Shown here: piece after piece, positions 2,114 to 6,338 of the stretch
Layout of the letters: each line of letters begins with the position of its first letter
Numbering within the stretch: position 1 is the stretch's first letter
From: Paenibacillus hemerocallicola
GTDB lineage: Bacteria; Bacillota; Bacilli; Paenibacillales; NBRC-103111
Direction of reading: 5' to 3'
Length of the DNA stretch: 47,960 bases
Assembly (NCBI RefSeq): GCF_006265175.1
Contig: NZ_VDCQ01000072.1
Location: forward strand, 1-47,960
Program-made: the position numbers and the translations under genes
The notes under the pieces: model-generated
Told to the model about the DNA's origin: nothing
Databases searched by the model: none
Seen by the model: only the letters and a program-made list of their open reading frames with translations

Positions 2114-2142
2114 TTGCATTGGGAAATAAGGTATGTTAGAAT
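2114..2142 (+). promoter_or_regulatory. Sigma-A-type promoter of the cfr-like leader transcript
   Basis: A TTGCAT hexamer (2114-2119) and a TAGAAT hexamer (2137-2142) are separated by exactly 17 bases. The -10 is one base off consensus; the -35 is poor. A start near 2149 would put the whole attenuator (2181-2358) inside the leader RNA. Confidence 0.5.
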
Positions 2143-2159
2143 TTCGCTAACGCTTAACG

Positions 2160-2282
2160 ATGGGAGATGAAGAGGATAATGTAATCTTTCTTGCTTACCG
2201 CTTAAAGAACAATCAAGCTCTGTTCTGTTCTTTATCCGGCAAGAAAGTTACTTATTCTTTTCACTCAATAAATATATTCTGA
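2160..2282 (+). CDS. Possible 40-residue leader peptide within the attenuator
   Basis: An ATG at 2160, about 11 bases after the predicted transcription start, opens 40 codons (MGDEEDNVIFLAY...) ending at TGA 2280-2282. It covers both segment 1 and segment 2 of the attenuator, so a ribosome stalled in its first third would cover segment 1. There is no good ribosome binding site. A nested MKRIM reading frame (2167-2184) ends exactly where segment 1 starts and is an alternative. Translation of either is inferred only from position. Confidence 0.3.
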   Translation: MGDEEDNVIFLAYRLKNNQALFCSLSGKKVTYSFHSINIF

Positions 2283-2358
2283 TTTGGCCTGTATCGGCTT
2301 GAATCGCTGTATTTCATTGAGCTACAAGAAAGGTAACTTTCTTGTAGCTTTTTTATTT
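2181..2358 (+). promoter_or_regulatory. Three-segment transcription attenuator upstream of the cfr-like gene
   Basis: Three related segments can form mutually exclusive pairs. Segment 1 (2181-2193, ends CTTTCTTGC) pairs with segment 2 (2239-2251, GCAAGAAAGTTAC) with one bulge; AAAGAAC (2204-2210) and GTTCTTT (2226-2232) stack inside. Segment 2 can instead pair perfectly over 12 bases with segment 3 (2334-2345, GTAACTTTCTTG). Segment 3 is also the 3' arm of an intrinsic terminator: GCTACAAGAAAG (2321-2332), a GTAA loop, CTTTCTTGTAGC (2337-2348), then T6 (2349-2354). Pair 1:2 allows termination and pair 2:3 prevents it. The same logic controls several ribosome-targeting-antibiotic resistance genes (erm and ABC-F types), where a drug-stalled ribosome covers segment 1. 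Drug dependence here is inferred. Confidence 0.75.
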
Positions 2359-2372
2359 ATCAAAAGGAGTTC

Positions 2373-2411
2373 ATGGTGATGAAACTGACGTTTGCCCATG
2401 AAGGCAGCTGA
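2373..2411 (+). CDS. Possible 12-residue peptide ORF after the attenuator
   Basis: AAAAGGAG (2362-2369) sits 3 bases before ATG 2373, and a second in-frame ATG at 2379 has better spacing. The frame (MVMKLTFAHEGS) stops at TGA 2409-2411. It may be a second leader peptide or a relic start; only the ribosome binding site supports it. Confidence 0.25.
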   Translation: MVMKLTFAHEGS

Positions 2412-2469
2412 GACAACATCAAAGATCGTTGATTTGAAAAGCTAACTATTTCTAGGAGGATGAAAGCGA

Positions 2470-2583
2470 TGATGATTGAGGTTGTAGATGATCAAGTGAA
2501 CCGGTCACTGTCGATTGACGCGGTTCATCATAAAATTACACGAATGCCGGAGATTTATCCATTTATCGACAAATGCACGTAGC
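2470..2583 (+). CDS. Possible 37-residue small ORF between attenuator and cfr-like gene
   Basis: A textbook AGGAGG (2455-2460) lies 9 bases before ATG 2470. The frame reads MMIEVVDDQVNRSLSIDAVH... and stops at TAG 2581-2583, about 110 bases before the methyltransferase start. I do not recognise the peptide. It could be a translated upstream ORF, or the 5' end of a decayed gene. The ribosome binding site is stronger than that of many real genes in this window, which is the only reason to list it. Confidence 0.35.
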
Positions 2584-2694
2584 GAATCAGTCTGCATACG
2601 CTTCGTGTCCTTTCCAGCATAGTTGATTAATGGACGCTCGAAAGCAAAGGTTACGGATGCTTTTAGCGTTGTTCTCCGGCTGGAAGGAGAATTA

Positions 2695-3726
2695 ATGAAA
2701 CCAACCTCGAAATACGAAACGATTCGACAAATGTTGTCGGATCTGAAGTTGCCCGAATTTCGGTATCTGCAAATTTTGGATGCGATATTCAAGCGAAAAA
2801 TCGGCGAATACGAACGGATGACCATGCTTCCCAAGGTGTTGCGCGACGAATTGATTCGGACGCTTGGTCGGCACGTCTCCAGCGTTACGCCGATACTCGA
2901 AAAATCGTCGAAGCAGGTCAGCAAGGTATTGTTTGCCATTGCGGGCGGAGAGCGAGTGGAGACAGTTCGACTTAGCTATCAGCGTGGATGGAATTCGTTT
3001 TGCATTTCCTCCCAGTGCGGCTGCGGATTCGGCTGCCGGTTTTGTGCCACCGGCGCTATCGGCTTGAAACGAAATCTTAACGCTAATGAAATAACTGACC
3101 AACTGTTGTACTTTCATTTGAACGGCCAAACTTTGGACAGCATCTCATTTATGGGAATGGGAGAGGCTCTAGCGAACCCGCATATTTTCGATGCGCTAAC
3201 GATTTTGACCGACCCGCGTATATTTGGTTTAGGCCATCGAAGAATTACGGTTTCCACGATCGGCATTATGCCGGGCATTGACAGGCTGACAAGGGAGTTC
3301 CCGCAGGTCAACCTGACCTTCTCGCTGCATTCGCCGTTTGATGAACAGCGAAGCGAGCTGATGCCAATCAACGACCGCTTCCCGTTACATGACGTGATGA
3401 AGGCGTTAGACCGGCATATCCGGGATACGGGGAGAAAAGTATATATCGCCTATATTATGCTTCGAGGGATTAACGATTCGACTGAGCATGCGGAAGCGGT
3501 TGCCGTTCTGCTGCGGGGTAGGGGATCTGGGGAGCATCTGTATCACGTCAACCTGATTCCCTACAATTCAACCGATGTAACGCCCGAAAGCTTCGGGCAA
3601 TCTGACCGAAACCGGATCAAAAAGTTCGTTTGGGTCTTAAAGTCGAAGGGAATCAACGTCACGGTTCGAACCCAATTCGGATCGGACATTGACGCGGCTT
3701 GCGGTCAGTTATACCGAACCAGATAA
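2695..3726 (+). CDS. cfr-like (clb/clc type): Cfr-type 23S rRNA (adenine2503-C8) methyltransferase, radical SAM
   Basis: Predicted to methylate C8 of A2503 in 23S rRNA, which in characterised Cfr proteins gives resistance to phenicols, lincosamides, oxazolidinones, pleuromutilins and streptogramin A. The 343 residues match the usual length (staphylococcal Cfr is 349). Visible motifs: SFCISSQCGC (methyl-accepting Cys103), the radical-SAM CX3CX2C cluster (C110, C114, C117, in CGFGCRFCATG), SISFMGMGEALAN, NLTFSLHSP, and the C-terminal DIDAACGQLY with catalytic Cys336. The SSQCGC form and the ERVETV, KVYIAYIML and YHVNLI segments resemble Cfr rather than housekeeping RlmN, which has SSQVGC. I chose ATG 2695 because AAGGAG lies 6 bases upstream; an in-frame ATG at 2623 lacks one. 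The gene is AT-richer than its neighbours and stands alone. Resistance activity is inferred. Confidence 0.9.
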   Translation: MKPTSKYETIRQMLSDLKLPEFRYLQILDAIFKRKIGEYERMTMLPKVLRDELIRTLGRHVSSVTPILEKSSKQVSKVLFAIAGGERVETVRLSYQRGWNSFCISSQCGCGFGCRFCATGAIGLKRNLNANEITDQLLYFHLNGQTLDSISFMGMGEALANPHIFDALTILTDPRIFGLGHRRITVSTIGIMPGIDRLTREFPQVNLTFSLHSPFDEQRSELMPINDRFPLHDVMKALDRHIRDTGRKVYIAYIMLRGINDSTEHAEAVAVLLRGRGSGEHLYHVNLIPYNSTDVTPESFGQSDRNRIKKFVWVLKSKGINVTVRTQFGSDIDAACGQLYRTR

Positions 3727-4208: not shown

Positions 4209-5255
4209 ATGAGCGCCACTATGAAAAAGATCGACGTCGATGTGCATAATGCGCTGAAAAGCCCGAGAGATATTTATCCCTATTTTCCGCAGCCGTGGAA
4301 ATCCCAAGGGGCCGGGCTGCCCACAAGCGGTTATCCTTCGCCGATCGATTTCAAACGCGAAAACAGCATACCGCCGTCCGGCGGGCCGGCCGCTTCCGAC
4401 GCCGATTATATCGTGCAGCATTTGATCGAGCCGAACGATATCGAATTCGCCATCATGACCGGCCATTATTTCGACGTATCGGCACTGGTCGATCCCGATC
4501 ATGCAGCGGCGATTGCGAGCGCCTACAACGACTATATGGCGAACGATTGGCTGCCGAAGCATGCGTCGTTCCGCGGCACAATCGTCGTCGCCACGCAAGA
4601 CCCGTTTCAGGCGGTGCGGGAAATCGACCGGATGGCCGAACGTTCGTCGATGGCAGCCGTCGTGTTAAGCACGGCCCAGCCAGGGCTTCTCGGGCAGCGA
4701 CGGTTTCATCCGATCTACGAAGCGGCGGCGCGTCATGGTCTTCCGATCGCGATTCATCCGGGAGCAGACGGAGGGGGCGGGACGTATCCGCCGACGCCGT
4801 CCGGCTATCCGACCCATTTTATGGAATATCATTTGCGTACCTCGCAAAGCTTCCTCGGACACATGATCAGCTTGGTGTGCGAGGGGGTTCCCGAGAAGTT
4901 CCCGAATTTGAAATTCGCGATGCTCGGGGGCGGCGTCTCCTGGGTACCGCATCTGCTATGGCGGCTGGATAAAAACTACAAGGCGCTGCGCTCTACGGTG
5001 CCGTGGCTGAAACGGTTTCCGAGCGAATATATTCGCGACCATTTCCTGTTTTCTGCGAATCCGCTGGAAGAAGCGTACGACCCGCAAAATATGCTCGATC
5101 TGTTCAATATGATCGACGCCGAGAACGTTTTGCTTTATTCGAGCGACTATCCGAACCGGGACGACGGTACGGCGACGAACTTATTGAATCGTTTAAGCCC
5201 GGAAGCGCGGAAAAAAATAGTTTACGATAACGCCAAGAAGCTGTATCGGCTATGA
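4209..5255 (+). CDS. Amidohydrolase family 2 (PF04909) protein, paralogue 1 with altered conserved residues
   Basis: A 348-residue TIM-barrel metal-dependent hydrolase or decarboxylase of the ACMSD/gamma-resorcylate decarboxylase superfamily. The N-terminal IDVDVHN (Asp11-x-His13) is the family's variant of HxH. Further landmarks are PSGGPAASD (about 55-65), AIHPGADGG and SSDYP (311-315). The start is ATG 4209, 9 bases after GGGAGGAG. It is the first of two tandem paralogues, 18 bases before the next ATG, and clearly co-transcribed. Compared with paralogue 2 it has Gly240 where the other has Glu246 (GGG versus EGG), and Asn316 where the other has His322 (DYPN versus DYPH). Both positions are usually conserved in this family, so catalysis may be changed or lost. 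Substrate unknown. Confidence 0.85.
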   Translation: MSATMKKIDVDVHNALKSPRDIYPYFPQPWKSQGAGLPTSGYPSPIDFKRENSIPPSGGPAASDADYIVQHLIEPNDIEFAIMTGHYFDVSALVDPDHAAAIASAYNDYMANDWLPKHASFRGTIVVATQDPFQAVREIDRMAERSSMAAVVLSTAQPGLLGQRRFHPIYEAAARHGLPIAIHPGADGGGGTYPPTPSGYPTHFMEYHLRTSQSFLGHMISLVCEGVPEKFPNLKFAMLGGGVSWVPHLLWRLDKNYKALRSTVPWLKRFPSEYIRDHFLFSANPLEEAYDPQNMLDLFNMIDAENVLLYSSDYPNRDDGTATNLLNRLSPEARKKIVYDNAKKLYRL

Positions 5256-5273
5256 GAGGAGTTGTCCGATTCG

Positions 5274-6338
5274 ATGGCAGGTCAAATACAGAAAGTCATT
5301 GACGTCGATGTGCATCAAATGCTGCCCAGCGGGCAAGCGCTGCTTCCGTACTTGCCGGAGCCGTGGAAATCGCGGTACGCCAAAACGGGCTCAGGCGGCT
5401 CGGGCATGAACCTGCACAACCCGGTTGGGGTAATCCGTCAAGATTGCCGTCCGCCGTCCGGCGGTCCTACAGCTTCCGACCCGGATTTTATGGTTCAAGA
5501 CTTGCTGAAACCGTACAATATCGAACGCGTTGTTTTAACCGGCGATATGATGGGCATTTCTACGGGACACGATCCGGATTTTTCCGCCGCTATCGCCTCG
5601 GCCTATAACGATCATCTCGTCGAATATTGGCTGAATACGAAGCATGAGCATTATGTCGGTTCGATACTCGTTTCCTCGTTCGACGCCCATTTGGCGGCGA
5701 GAGAAATCGACCGGATGGCCGATCACCCGAAGATGGTCGGCGTCATTATGTGCAGCGGCCAGCGGAACTTGCTCGGCCAACGCAATTTTTACCCGATCTA
5801 TGAGGCGGCTTCCCGACACGGTCTGCCTGTAGCGATTCATCCGGGCAACGAAGGCGCCGGAGGAACGCCGCCGCCGACGGGGCACGGCTATCCGACCCGG
5901 TACTTGGAATGGCACACCAGCTTGTCCCAAAACTATATGGCCCAACTGACCAGCTTAATATGCGAAGGCGTGTTCGAGAAATTTCCGAAACTGAAGTTTG
6001 TATTGCTGGAGGGCGGCATCGCCTGGCTGCCGGGACTGATGTGGCAGATGGACAAAGCTTACAAGCAGCTGCGCGCTACGATGCCGTGGCTGAAACGATT
6101 GCCGAGCGAATATATTCGCGATCACTGCTATTTATCTACGCAGCCGATCGAGGAGCCGGATGATCCGAAGCAGCTAATGACTATATTCGACATGATCGAC
6201 GCCGAAAACTTCCTTATGTTCTCGACCGACTATCCGCATTGGGATAACGATATGCCGACGGAAATTTTGAAGAAGCTGCGTCCGGAACATAAGCAAAAAA
6301 TATATTACGATAACGCCAAAAAATTATATAACTTGTAA
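5274..6338 (+). CDS. Amidohydrolase family 2 (PF04909) protein, paralogue 2
   Basis: A 354-residue metal-dependent hydrolase or decarboxylase of the same family as the preceding gene, similar along its whole length (for example CEGV.EKFP.LKF and LPSEYIRDH). It keeps the complete motif set: IDVDVHQ near residue 8, AIHPGNEG, LLEGGIAW (Glu246) and STDYPHWD (Asp319, His322). I chose ATG 5274; its GAGAGGAG (5254-5261) is 12 bases away, which is long. An in-frame TTG at 5262 would abut the ribosome binding site and is less likely. The pair has no transporter or regulator of its own. Substrate unknown: the family covers aromatic acid decarboxylases and lactone hydrolases. Confidence 0.87.
   Translation: MAGQIQKVIDVDVHQMLPSGQALLPYLPEPWKSRYAKTGSGGSGMNLHNPVGVIRQDCRPPSGGPTASDPDFMVQDLLKPYNIERVVLTGDMMGISTGHDPDFSAAIASAYNDHLVEYWLNTKHEHYVGSILVSSFDAHLAAREIDRMADHPKMVGVIMCSGQRNLLGQRNFYPIYEAASRHGLPVAIHPGNEGAGGTPPPTGHGYPTRYLEWHTSLSQNYMAQLTSLICEGVFEKFPKLKFVLLEGGIAWLPGLMWQMDKAYKQLRATMPWLKRLPSEYIRDHCYLSTQPIEEPDDPKQLMTIFDMIDAENFLMFSTDYPHWDNDMPTEILKKLRPEHKQKIYYDNAKKLYNL

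Follow-up and report, generated by a model that had tools for sequence, protein, structure and literature searches.

A conserved three-segment attenuator upstream of a cfr gene in Paenibacillus hemerocallicola, probably left behind by loss of an lsa-type ABC-F gene

Why should a gene for a Cfr-family methyltransferase be preceded by a transcription attenuator of the kind that stands before ABC-F resistance genes? The question is raised by a 47,960-nucleotide (nt) stretch of Paenibacillus hemerocallicola (NZ_VDCQ01000072.1, assembly GCF_006265175.1, forward strand), the whole of which is called the window here; the parts of the leader region and the cfr gene lie on its plus strand. A preliminary description, made from the sequence, had proposed a drug-sensing attenuator of a Cfr enzyme. 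The enzyme itself was confirmed, as the gene at 2695-3726 (ATG at 2695) matches the NCBIfam profile of the Cfr-family 23S rRNA (A2503-C8) methyltransferases, TIGR04432, at 626.5 bits against a cutoff of 550, and the RlmN profile TIGR00048 at 271.3, below its cutoff of 290. The genome holds a second relative (G000:C124, 39% identical), which is presumably RlmN. The sequence upstream of cfr, element A (2114-2355), is a real three-segment attenuator, conserved in sequence and structure. It is probably an lsa-type attenuator that was left behind when its lsa gene was lost, that now stands upstream of a second leader (element B, 2454-2691) and cfr, and that senses drugs through a start-stop reading frame.

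Element A was delimited by its predicted fold and by an alignment of its relatives. It begins with a promoter at 2114-2142 (-35 TTGCAT at 2114-2119, a 17-nt spacer and an extended -10, TATGTTAGAAT, at 2132-2142), from which transcription would be expected to start near 2149. This promoter was not listed by a stricter scan, since it has 8 of 12 matches and the threshold was 9; among 37 sequences, the window being one, the best site had 8 or more matches in 29 and 6 or 7 in eight. The predicted fold of 2149-2360 has -72.6 kcal/mol, compared with -40.0 +/- 4.3 for shuffled sequences (z -7.5; none of 200 as good). Segment 1 (GTAATCTTTCTTG, 2181-2193) is part of a longer stem with segment 2, the anti-antiterminator (2164-2266), recognized from the fold and from covariation. 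Segment 2 (CAAGAAAGTTAC, 2240-2251) can alternatively pair with segment 3 (GTAACTTTCTTG, 2333-2344), which forms the loop and 3' arm of the terminator; this pairing is perfect over 12 base pairs, and its partner had previously been placed one base too far downstream, at 2334-2345. The intrinsic terminator (2320-2355) consists of a hairpin at 2320-2349 followed by a T run. A terminator scan gave this hairpin 14 pairs and the runner-up among its four sites seven. Since 3.0 +/- 1.4 sites were found in shuffled sequences, the number of sites is without meaning and only the 14-pair length counts. Promoter, three mutually exclusive helices and strong terminator thus form the ABC-F/erm leader layout named in the preliminary description. 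In a scan of the window against Rfam no match reached its gathering score, the weak ones being far below. One of these, ncr1575, was tried and rejected: the whole-length match was weak (19.5 bits against a gathering score of 60, E value 3.4) and disappeared with a shorter stretch, and a literature search for the name found nothing.

The position of element A in relatives was determined in two ways. First, from 129 cfr loci in genome contigs the best 80 were taken, and the sequence upstream of cfr was examined by a pattern over up to 3 kb (less in a few loci). The pattern was a relaxed one, as a stricter pattern missed L018 (loci are cited by L numbers). Element A was found upstream of cfr in 36 of the 80 loci, and the pattern had no match within up to 3 kb in the other 44. 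In 22 of these loci, the distance from the AUG of element A to cfr was 0.37 to 0.63 kb; in the other 14 it was 1.9 to 2.0 kb, with an ABC-F frame in between (at least 495 amino acids stop to stop in 13, the flagged frame of L038 having just 270). The ABC-F protein of L006, the sole one so typed, belongs to the Lsa family (profile score 763 bits, cutoff 750). Secondly, a covariance model, R1, was built from the window and these 36 loci, which were all found next to cfr. In the family, R1 matched 81 of 104 genomes at an E value of 0.01, and in a draw from the class 32 of 299 at 1e-4.

Downstream genes were counted at 100 places, the best full-length R1 matches with the window itself excluded. 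A full lsa gene came directly after element A in 74 of them (66 with lsa alone, three with a partial cfr match and five with a full cfr after lsa). Thus, element A is primarily an lsa leader. At 22 places cfr followed without a full lsa in between: 14 had no lsa match, six had a partial ABC match (that of L151 being to a more remote ABC gene, 3 kb downstream) and two (L154 and L163) had an lsa-type gene after cfr. The remaining four places held pieces of lsa (L197, L214) or neither gene (L212, L216). In L154 and L163 the lsa-type gene, 63% identical, lies about 1.5 kb past A-cfr, and an order A-cfr-lsa is possible there. The proposal of a Cfr leader was therefore right in position and not in descent, as element A precedes cfr in the window and points by its relatives, and by the remnant described next, to lsa. 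An lsa-type ABC-F attenuator would have an intact ABC-F gene downstream; the window retains just the remnant of an lsa start. Judged from sequence, element A of the window is derived from an lsa-type ABC-F leader and laid out like one, but orphaned.

The remnant lies at 2371-2420, in the 119 nt that separate the terminator from element B, and represents the 5' end of the lost gene, with an ATG at 2373 and an in-frame stop at 2409-2411. About 50 nt of the lsa start are left (local alignment score 60, with 24 the highest of 200 shuffles). A possible remnant of the lsa 3' end at 2420-2455 scored 32 against a shuffle maximum of 30. Without the bases shared with element B the score fell to 20, which 54 of 500 shuffles reached over 2351-2445 and 10 of 500 over 2412-2445; this candidate is therefore not counted as evidence. 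When the window and the 22 loci with element A close to cfr were compared, at least one lsa end scored above the shuffle maximum in 13 of the 23 sequences: the window, L009, L010, L011, L013, L014, L016, L017, L020, L021, L026, L028 and L030. The clear cases are L009, L010, L011, L013, L020 and L021. For example, the 3' ends in L009, L010 and L011 scored 226 to 254 over 141 to 149 nt, and L011 also kept a 5' end (102). The remnants of L026 and L028 are marginal, and these two together with L014, L016 and L017 partly rest on the tail shared with element B. Neither end exceeded the shuffle maximum in the other ten (L015, L019, L023, L024, L032, L036, L039, L040, L042 and L047). The leftover stretches vary from locus to locus, which would fit several losses of lsa or continued erosion.

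All 22 genomes with an lsa-less A-cfr have a further A-lsa among the 100 places, compared with two of the five genomes with A-lsa-cfr (Fisher p 0.0034, in a post hoc test on related genomes that excluded three with a partial cfr match). Thus, loss of lsa from the operon goes with a spare copy. In the genome of the window, the second leader is at G000:C91 178023-178235 (L083 1270-1482), before an intact lsa gene whose protein is 82% identical to that of L006 and whose only stop in the match is the last codon. This leader has a start-stop frame of AUG-UGA and a fold z of -8.3. The ancestral order was probably element A, lsa, leader B and cfr, with the body of lsa lost in the lineage of the window.

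What would element A sense? A putative ribosome-binding site at 2163-2170 (GGAGATGA), aligned in relatives, precedes a start-stop upstream open reading frame (uORF), ATG TAA at 2179-2184. An ATG occurs at the aligned 2179 column in 93 of 100 sequences, where the next codon is UAA in 66, UAG in 16, UGA in three and a sense codon in eight. That three stop codons interchange, and that the ATG persists in sequences lacking the stop, suggests genuine initiation at this codon. With the first ATG at 6 to 16 nt past GGRG taken as the start, the frame had one codon in 87 of 100 sequences and two to seven in 11, with two unparsed. An arrest-peptide leader of the erm type is not indicated by one-codon frames from a conserved AUG. 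Two weak model matches, L234 (E value 1.1e-7) and L235 (2.7e-5), are leaders of lsa genes 62 and 66% identical; these distant leaders have GGAGGTGG and AGAGGTGG close ahead of the corresponding AUG, from which they encode MINFSCR and MYNFSC, and L158, within the family, also encodes MYNFSC. The uORF was probably longer at one time and later cut down. According to excerpts of PMC10201436, the action of pleuromutilins, lincosamides and streptogramin A falls after initiation and depends little on context. This would explain why nothing beyond the AUG is needed.

The alternative that survives best, although an unlikely one, is that the sensor is a peptide of about five codons from 2167 (M-K-R-I-M in the window) or, formerly, MYNFSC from the 2179-type AUG. 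In 61 of 100 sequences a start codon closely follows GGRG and shares the frame of the conserved AUG, which leaves room for five codons read from a 2167-type start; the 11 longer frames from the conserved AUG and the peptides of the distant lsa leaders agree with it. However, 37 sequences have no such in-frame start while the AUG is kept (two were unparsed), a 2167-type start would sit directly against the Shine-Dalgarno (SD) sequence, and the AUG itself gives a single residue in 87. The leader frame from 2160, which had been proposed beside that from 2167, is unlikely: its ATG is present in nine of 100 aligned sequences, and in two of 37 in alignment A1 (the window and L030), and where it exists its length ranges from 1 to 48 codons, with one frame running off the end. 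The sensor is most likely the start-stop frame.

Conservation of the alternative helices was measured in alignment A2, which holds the window and 99 of the 100 fetched places (L224 left out). A2 was fitted to the model and its sequences are related, so the following covariation figures are inflated. In the anti-antiterminator, 89.1% of cells form standard pairs, against 41 to 51% when slid, and both sides had changed in 20 pairs, compared with 9.7 +/- 1.8 in shuffles (none of 500 as high). The terminator is 97.9% paired, with five pairs changed on both sides against 1.7 +/- 0.7 (none of 500 as high). The antiterminator is 95.3% paired, against 42 to 54% when slid, and its covariation in these 100 sequences is not beyond shuffles, perhaps as segment 3 is tied to two partners. 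Thus the segments are conserved in relatives, with covariation in two of the three helices. A ribosome was then modelled on the AUG, with a footprint from -14 to +14. Of the 93 parsed sequences, 80 switched in their full-length fold to the antiterminator, compared with eight without the footprint and eight with either control footprint (apical loop or spacer). When the footprint reached to +8, +11 or +17, the antiterminator was obtained in 40, 66 and 81 of the 93. In a nascent chain ending at segment 3, with the ribosome modelled, it was obtained in 84.

These data bear on a further alternative, that element A is a functionless fossil and cfr is under element B or constitutive. The loss of lsa and the conservation of element B next to cfr speak for it. 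However, element A before cfr is no more decayed than before lsa, even though the junctions differ between loci: 597 of 643 anti-antiterminator cells (92.8%) are paired in A-cfr and 1844 of 1980 (93.1%) in A-lsa, and 296 of 299 (99.0%) and 902 of 924 (97.6%) terminator cells, respectively. The AUG-stop stands at the aligned column in all 23 A-cfr rows (window included) compared with 59 of 73 A-lsa rows. In addition, a standing terminator would cut transcription of cfr from this promoter unless it were relieved. A fossil is thus improbable. Still less probable is a leader that evolved for Cfr, with a drug-stalled ribosome on the peptide from 2160 or 2167: it would account for the 22 places, besides the window, where element A precedes cfr, for the 61 in-frame 2167-type starts and the nine ATGs at 2160, but not for the 74 places before lsa, nor for the absence of the 2160 frame in 91 sequences and its uneven length in the rest.

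Between element A and cfr lies element B (2454-2691), a second conserved leader, recognized in the alignment of cfr loci and absent from the preliminary description. A 15-base motif of element B, allowing at most two mismatches, precedes cfr in 52 of 80 loci and in none of 80 when each was shuffled once. The window and 37 loci were aligned; L042, L049 and L057, of the same group and gapped, were left out. The leader frame of about 40 codons (2454-2582 with its SD at 2454-2459, ATG at 2469 or 2472 and stop at 2580-2582) is full in 36 of 38 and broken in L038 and L039. Inside it, a hairpin at 2496-2528 (2496-2503 with 2521-2528, GTGAACCG/CGGTTCAC) is paired in 98.0% of cells, with one pair changed on both sides, which is not beyond shuffles. 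GCCGGAG at 2546-2552 is complementary to CTCCGGC at 2674-2680; each pair is formed in 37 or 38 of 38 sequences, and this invariance permits no covariation signal. A hairpin TTCTCC/GGAGAA at 2672-2691, seen in the same alignment, covers the ribosome-binding site of cfr. By eye, a weak hairpin with a T run was noted at 2641-2664, at the position of a strong terminator in a second group of cfr loci.

In that group of 21 other cfr loci, the SD of the leader frame can pair with a segment behind CCGGA, and the terminator hairpin before cfr has 97.2 and 95.0% of cells paired, although the terminator scan listed it in only nine of the 21. ACCGGAGCTTT can pair with the 5' arm of the terminator in 92.1% of cells, with three pairs in which both sides had changed, a number reached by 3 of 500 shuffles; the structure as a whole is 92.7% paired. 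The leader frame is shifted in L041, L056 and L059. Element B looks like a transcription attenuator in the 21 loci, and in the group of the window, where the hairpin is weak, it looks more like translational control. Leaders of another form precede cfr elsewhere. For example, L076, L078 and L080 to L082 (Bacillus, Neobacillus and Lysinibacillus) have a leader frame MLTVFRILFG... with segments AACTGTTTTT and AAAAACAGTTATCGGAGCTT, and L079 (Sporolactobacillus) has a diverged form. Of 182 records with a match, three were chosen. The plasmid-borne cfr of pWo28-1 (Mammaliicoccus sciuri) is preceded by MLTVFRILFGENTKIG... (L244 584-763, 59 residues, annotated as a hypothetical protein), a leader of the Bacillus type with nearly the same complementary segments and a terminator-like stretch. 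cfr(B) of an Enterococcus faecium plasmid (L245) keeps the start of the leader frame and segments AACTGTTTTT and AAAAACAGTT; the terminator-like stretch is missing upstream. In the record of cfr(C), the leader features are absent from the 300 bases examined.

Element A and element B can be joined in a proposed mechanism. Polymerase would start near 2149, and a ribosome would bind GGAG (2163) and initiate on the AUG at 2179. Without drug, it would meet the stop at once and leave, 2164-2194 would pair with 2239-2266 so that segment 2 is hidden, the terminator hairpin would form and transcription would end near 2355. A drug at the peptidyl-transferase centre (a pleuromutilin, lincosamide or streptogramin A, perhaps a phenicol) would hold the initiating ribosome on the AUG, with its downstream edge covering segment 1. 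Segment 2 would then pair with segment 3, beginning at the terminator loop, and polymerase would read through into element B and cfr. Element B would then probably act on translation of cfr, its CTCCGGC either helping to hide the ribosome-binding site or pairing with GCCGGAG in the leader frame. The result would be two drug-sensitive gates in series before cfr. A bolder and more tentative proposal, held with less than even confidence, is that element A represents a leader class without a leader peptide, in which a start-stop sensor, arisen from a MYNFSC-like uORF, reads whether the initiating ribosome releases formyl-methionine and leaves, and which after the loss of lsa came to gate cfr in series with cfr's own leader.

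Several observations weigh against an orphaned attenuator with a start-stop sensor. First, the in-frame upstream starts in 61 of 100 sequences leave room for a five-codon peptide, and GGAG is 12 nt from the AUG at 2179, a distance that is longer than usual. Secondly, the antiterminator does not covary beyond shuffles, the figures for the other helices are inflated as stated, and the covariance model was built from loci next to cfr. Third, 13 of 93 sequences miss the antiterminator despite the modelled ribosome, and seven of 100 were unparsed for this modelling. The lsa 3' remnant of the window does not exceed shuffles once the tail of element B is excluded. In element B, the reading frame has no coding signature and no excess of changes at third positions (departures of 0.078, 0.119 and 0.112 at codon positions 1, 2 and 3), and 32 of 200 shuffles of the window's copy fold as well as the original (z -0.99). 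Drug induction through element A is plausible and reached by inference.

The attenuation logic itself has precedents, for which excerpts of the cited papers were used. Experiments support it for the leaders of vmlR in B. subtilis and cplR in C. difficile (PMC9226507, PMC10201436), the latter having been aligned with that of lmo0919/vgaL of Listeria. Both leaders resemble element A in a uORF within the 5' arm of the anti-antiterminator or repressing hairpin, an intrinsic terminator and a drug-stalled ribosome. Their uORFs have about three codons (MIN, MR[I/M]), whereas that of element A mostly has one, and their ABC-F gene is present downstream, whereas it is gone in the window. Since such three-way attenuators with very short uORFs are described there, the kind is already known. 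The leader of lsaA belongs to the same ABC-F family, but its uORF consensus from uORF4u, MAGN, is unlike element A (PMC10201436; compared by consensus only). The hflXr/rli80 leader of Listeria also works by transcription attenuation with a terminator, antiterminator, anti-antiterminator and uORF, but its uORF encodes 14 residues with an RLR motif (PMC6310831). cfr adjoins lsa in staphylococci and C. difficile (PMC10201436), whereas in the window lsa is lost, with the leader and part of its start left. Start-stop sites with potential regulatory function are reported in E. coli (PMC11955535). Among the matches listed in our literature search there was no start-stop drug sensor for ABC-F or erm and, judged by titles and the opening of abstracts, no cfr attenuator; most papers on cfr lay outside its coverage, and either may be described in print. 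The word 'leader' does not occur in PMC8752094, nor in the excerpts of PMC11047308. The variant described here is an ABC-F attenuator that has probably lost its gene and is followed by a leader of cfr itself.

Two side observations concern other parts of the window. The adjacent open reading frames at 4209-5255 and 5262-6338 (348 and 358 amino acids) look like paralogues by eye, and a frame of 568 amino acids at 19-1725 has an internal repeat, with HTHGKAAIYIDGEYRTTVDNY occurring twice.

If the proposed reading is true, the shortest possible open reading frame would be an antibiotic sensor, and sensing would be separated from arrest by a nascent peptide. Such a start-stop sensor would respond to every drug that acts as a block of the peptidyl-transferase centre, regardless of codon sequence, and would allow drugs that stop the first step after initiation to be told cleanly from the others. 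The case would also show how the control of resistance evolves, with the gene lost, the switch staying and the neighbour becoming gated. Leaders before cfr look widespread, as the Bacillus-type leader frames of pWo28-1 and cfr(B) indicate, and the inducibility of cfr therefore deserves a direct look.

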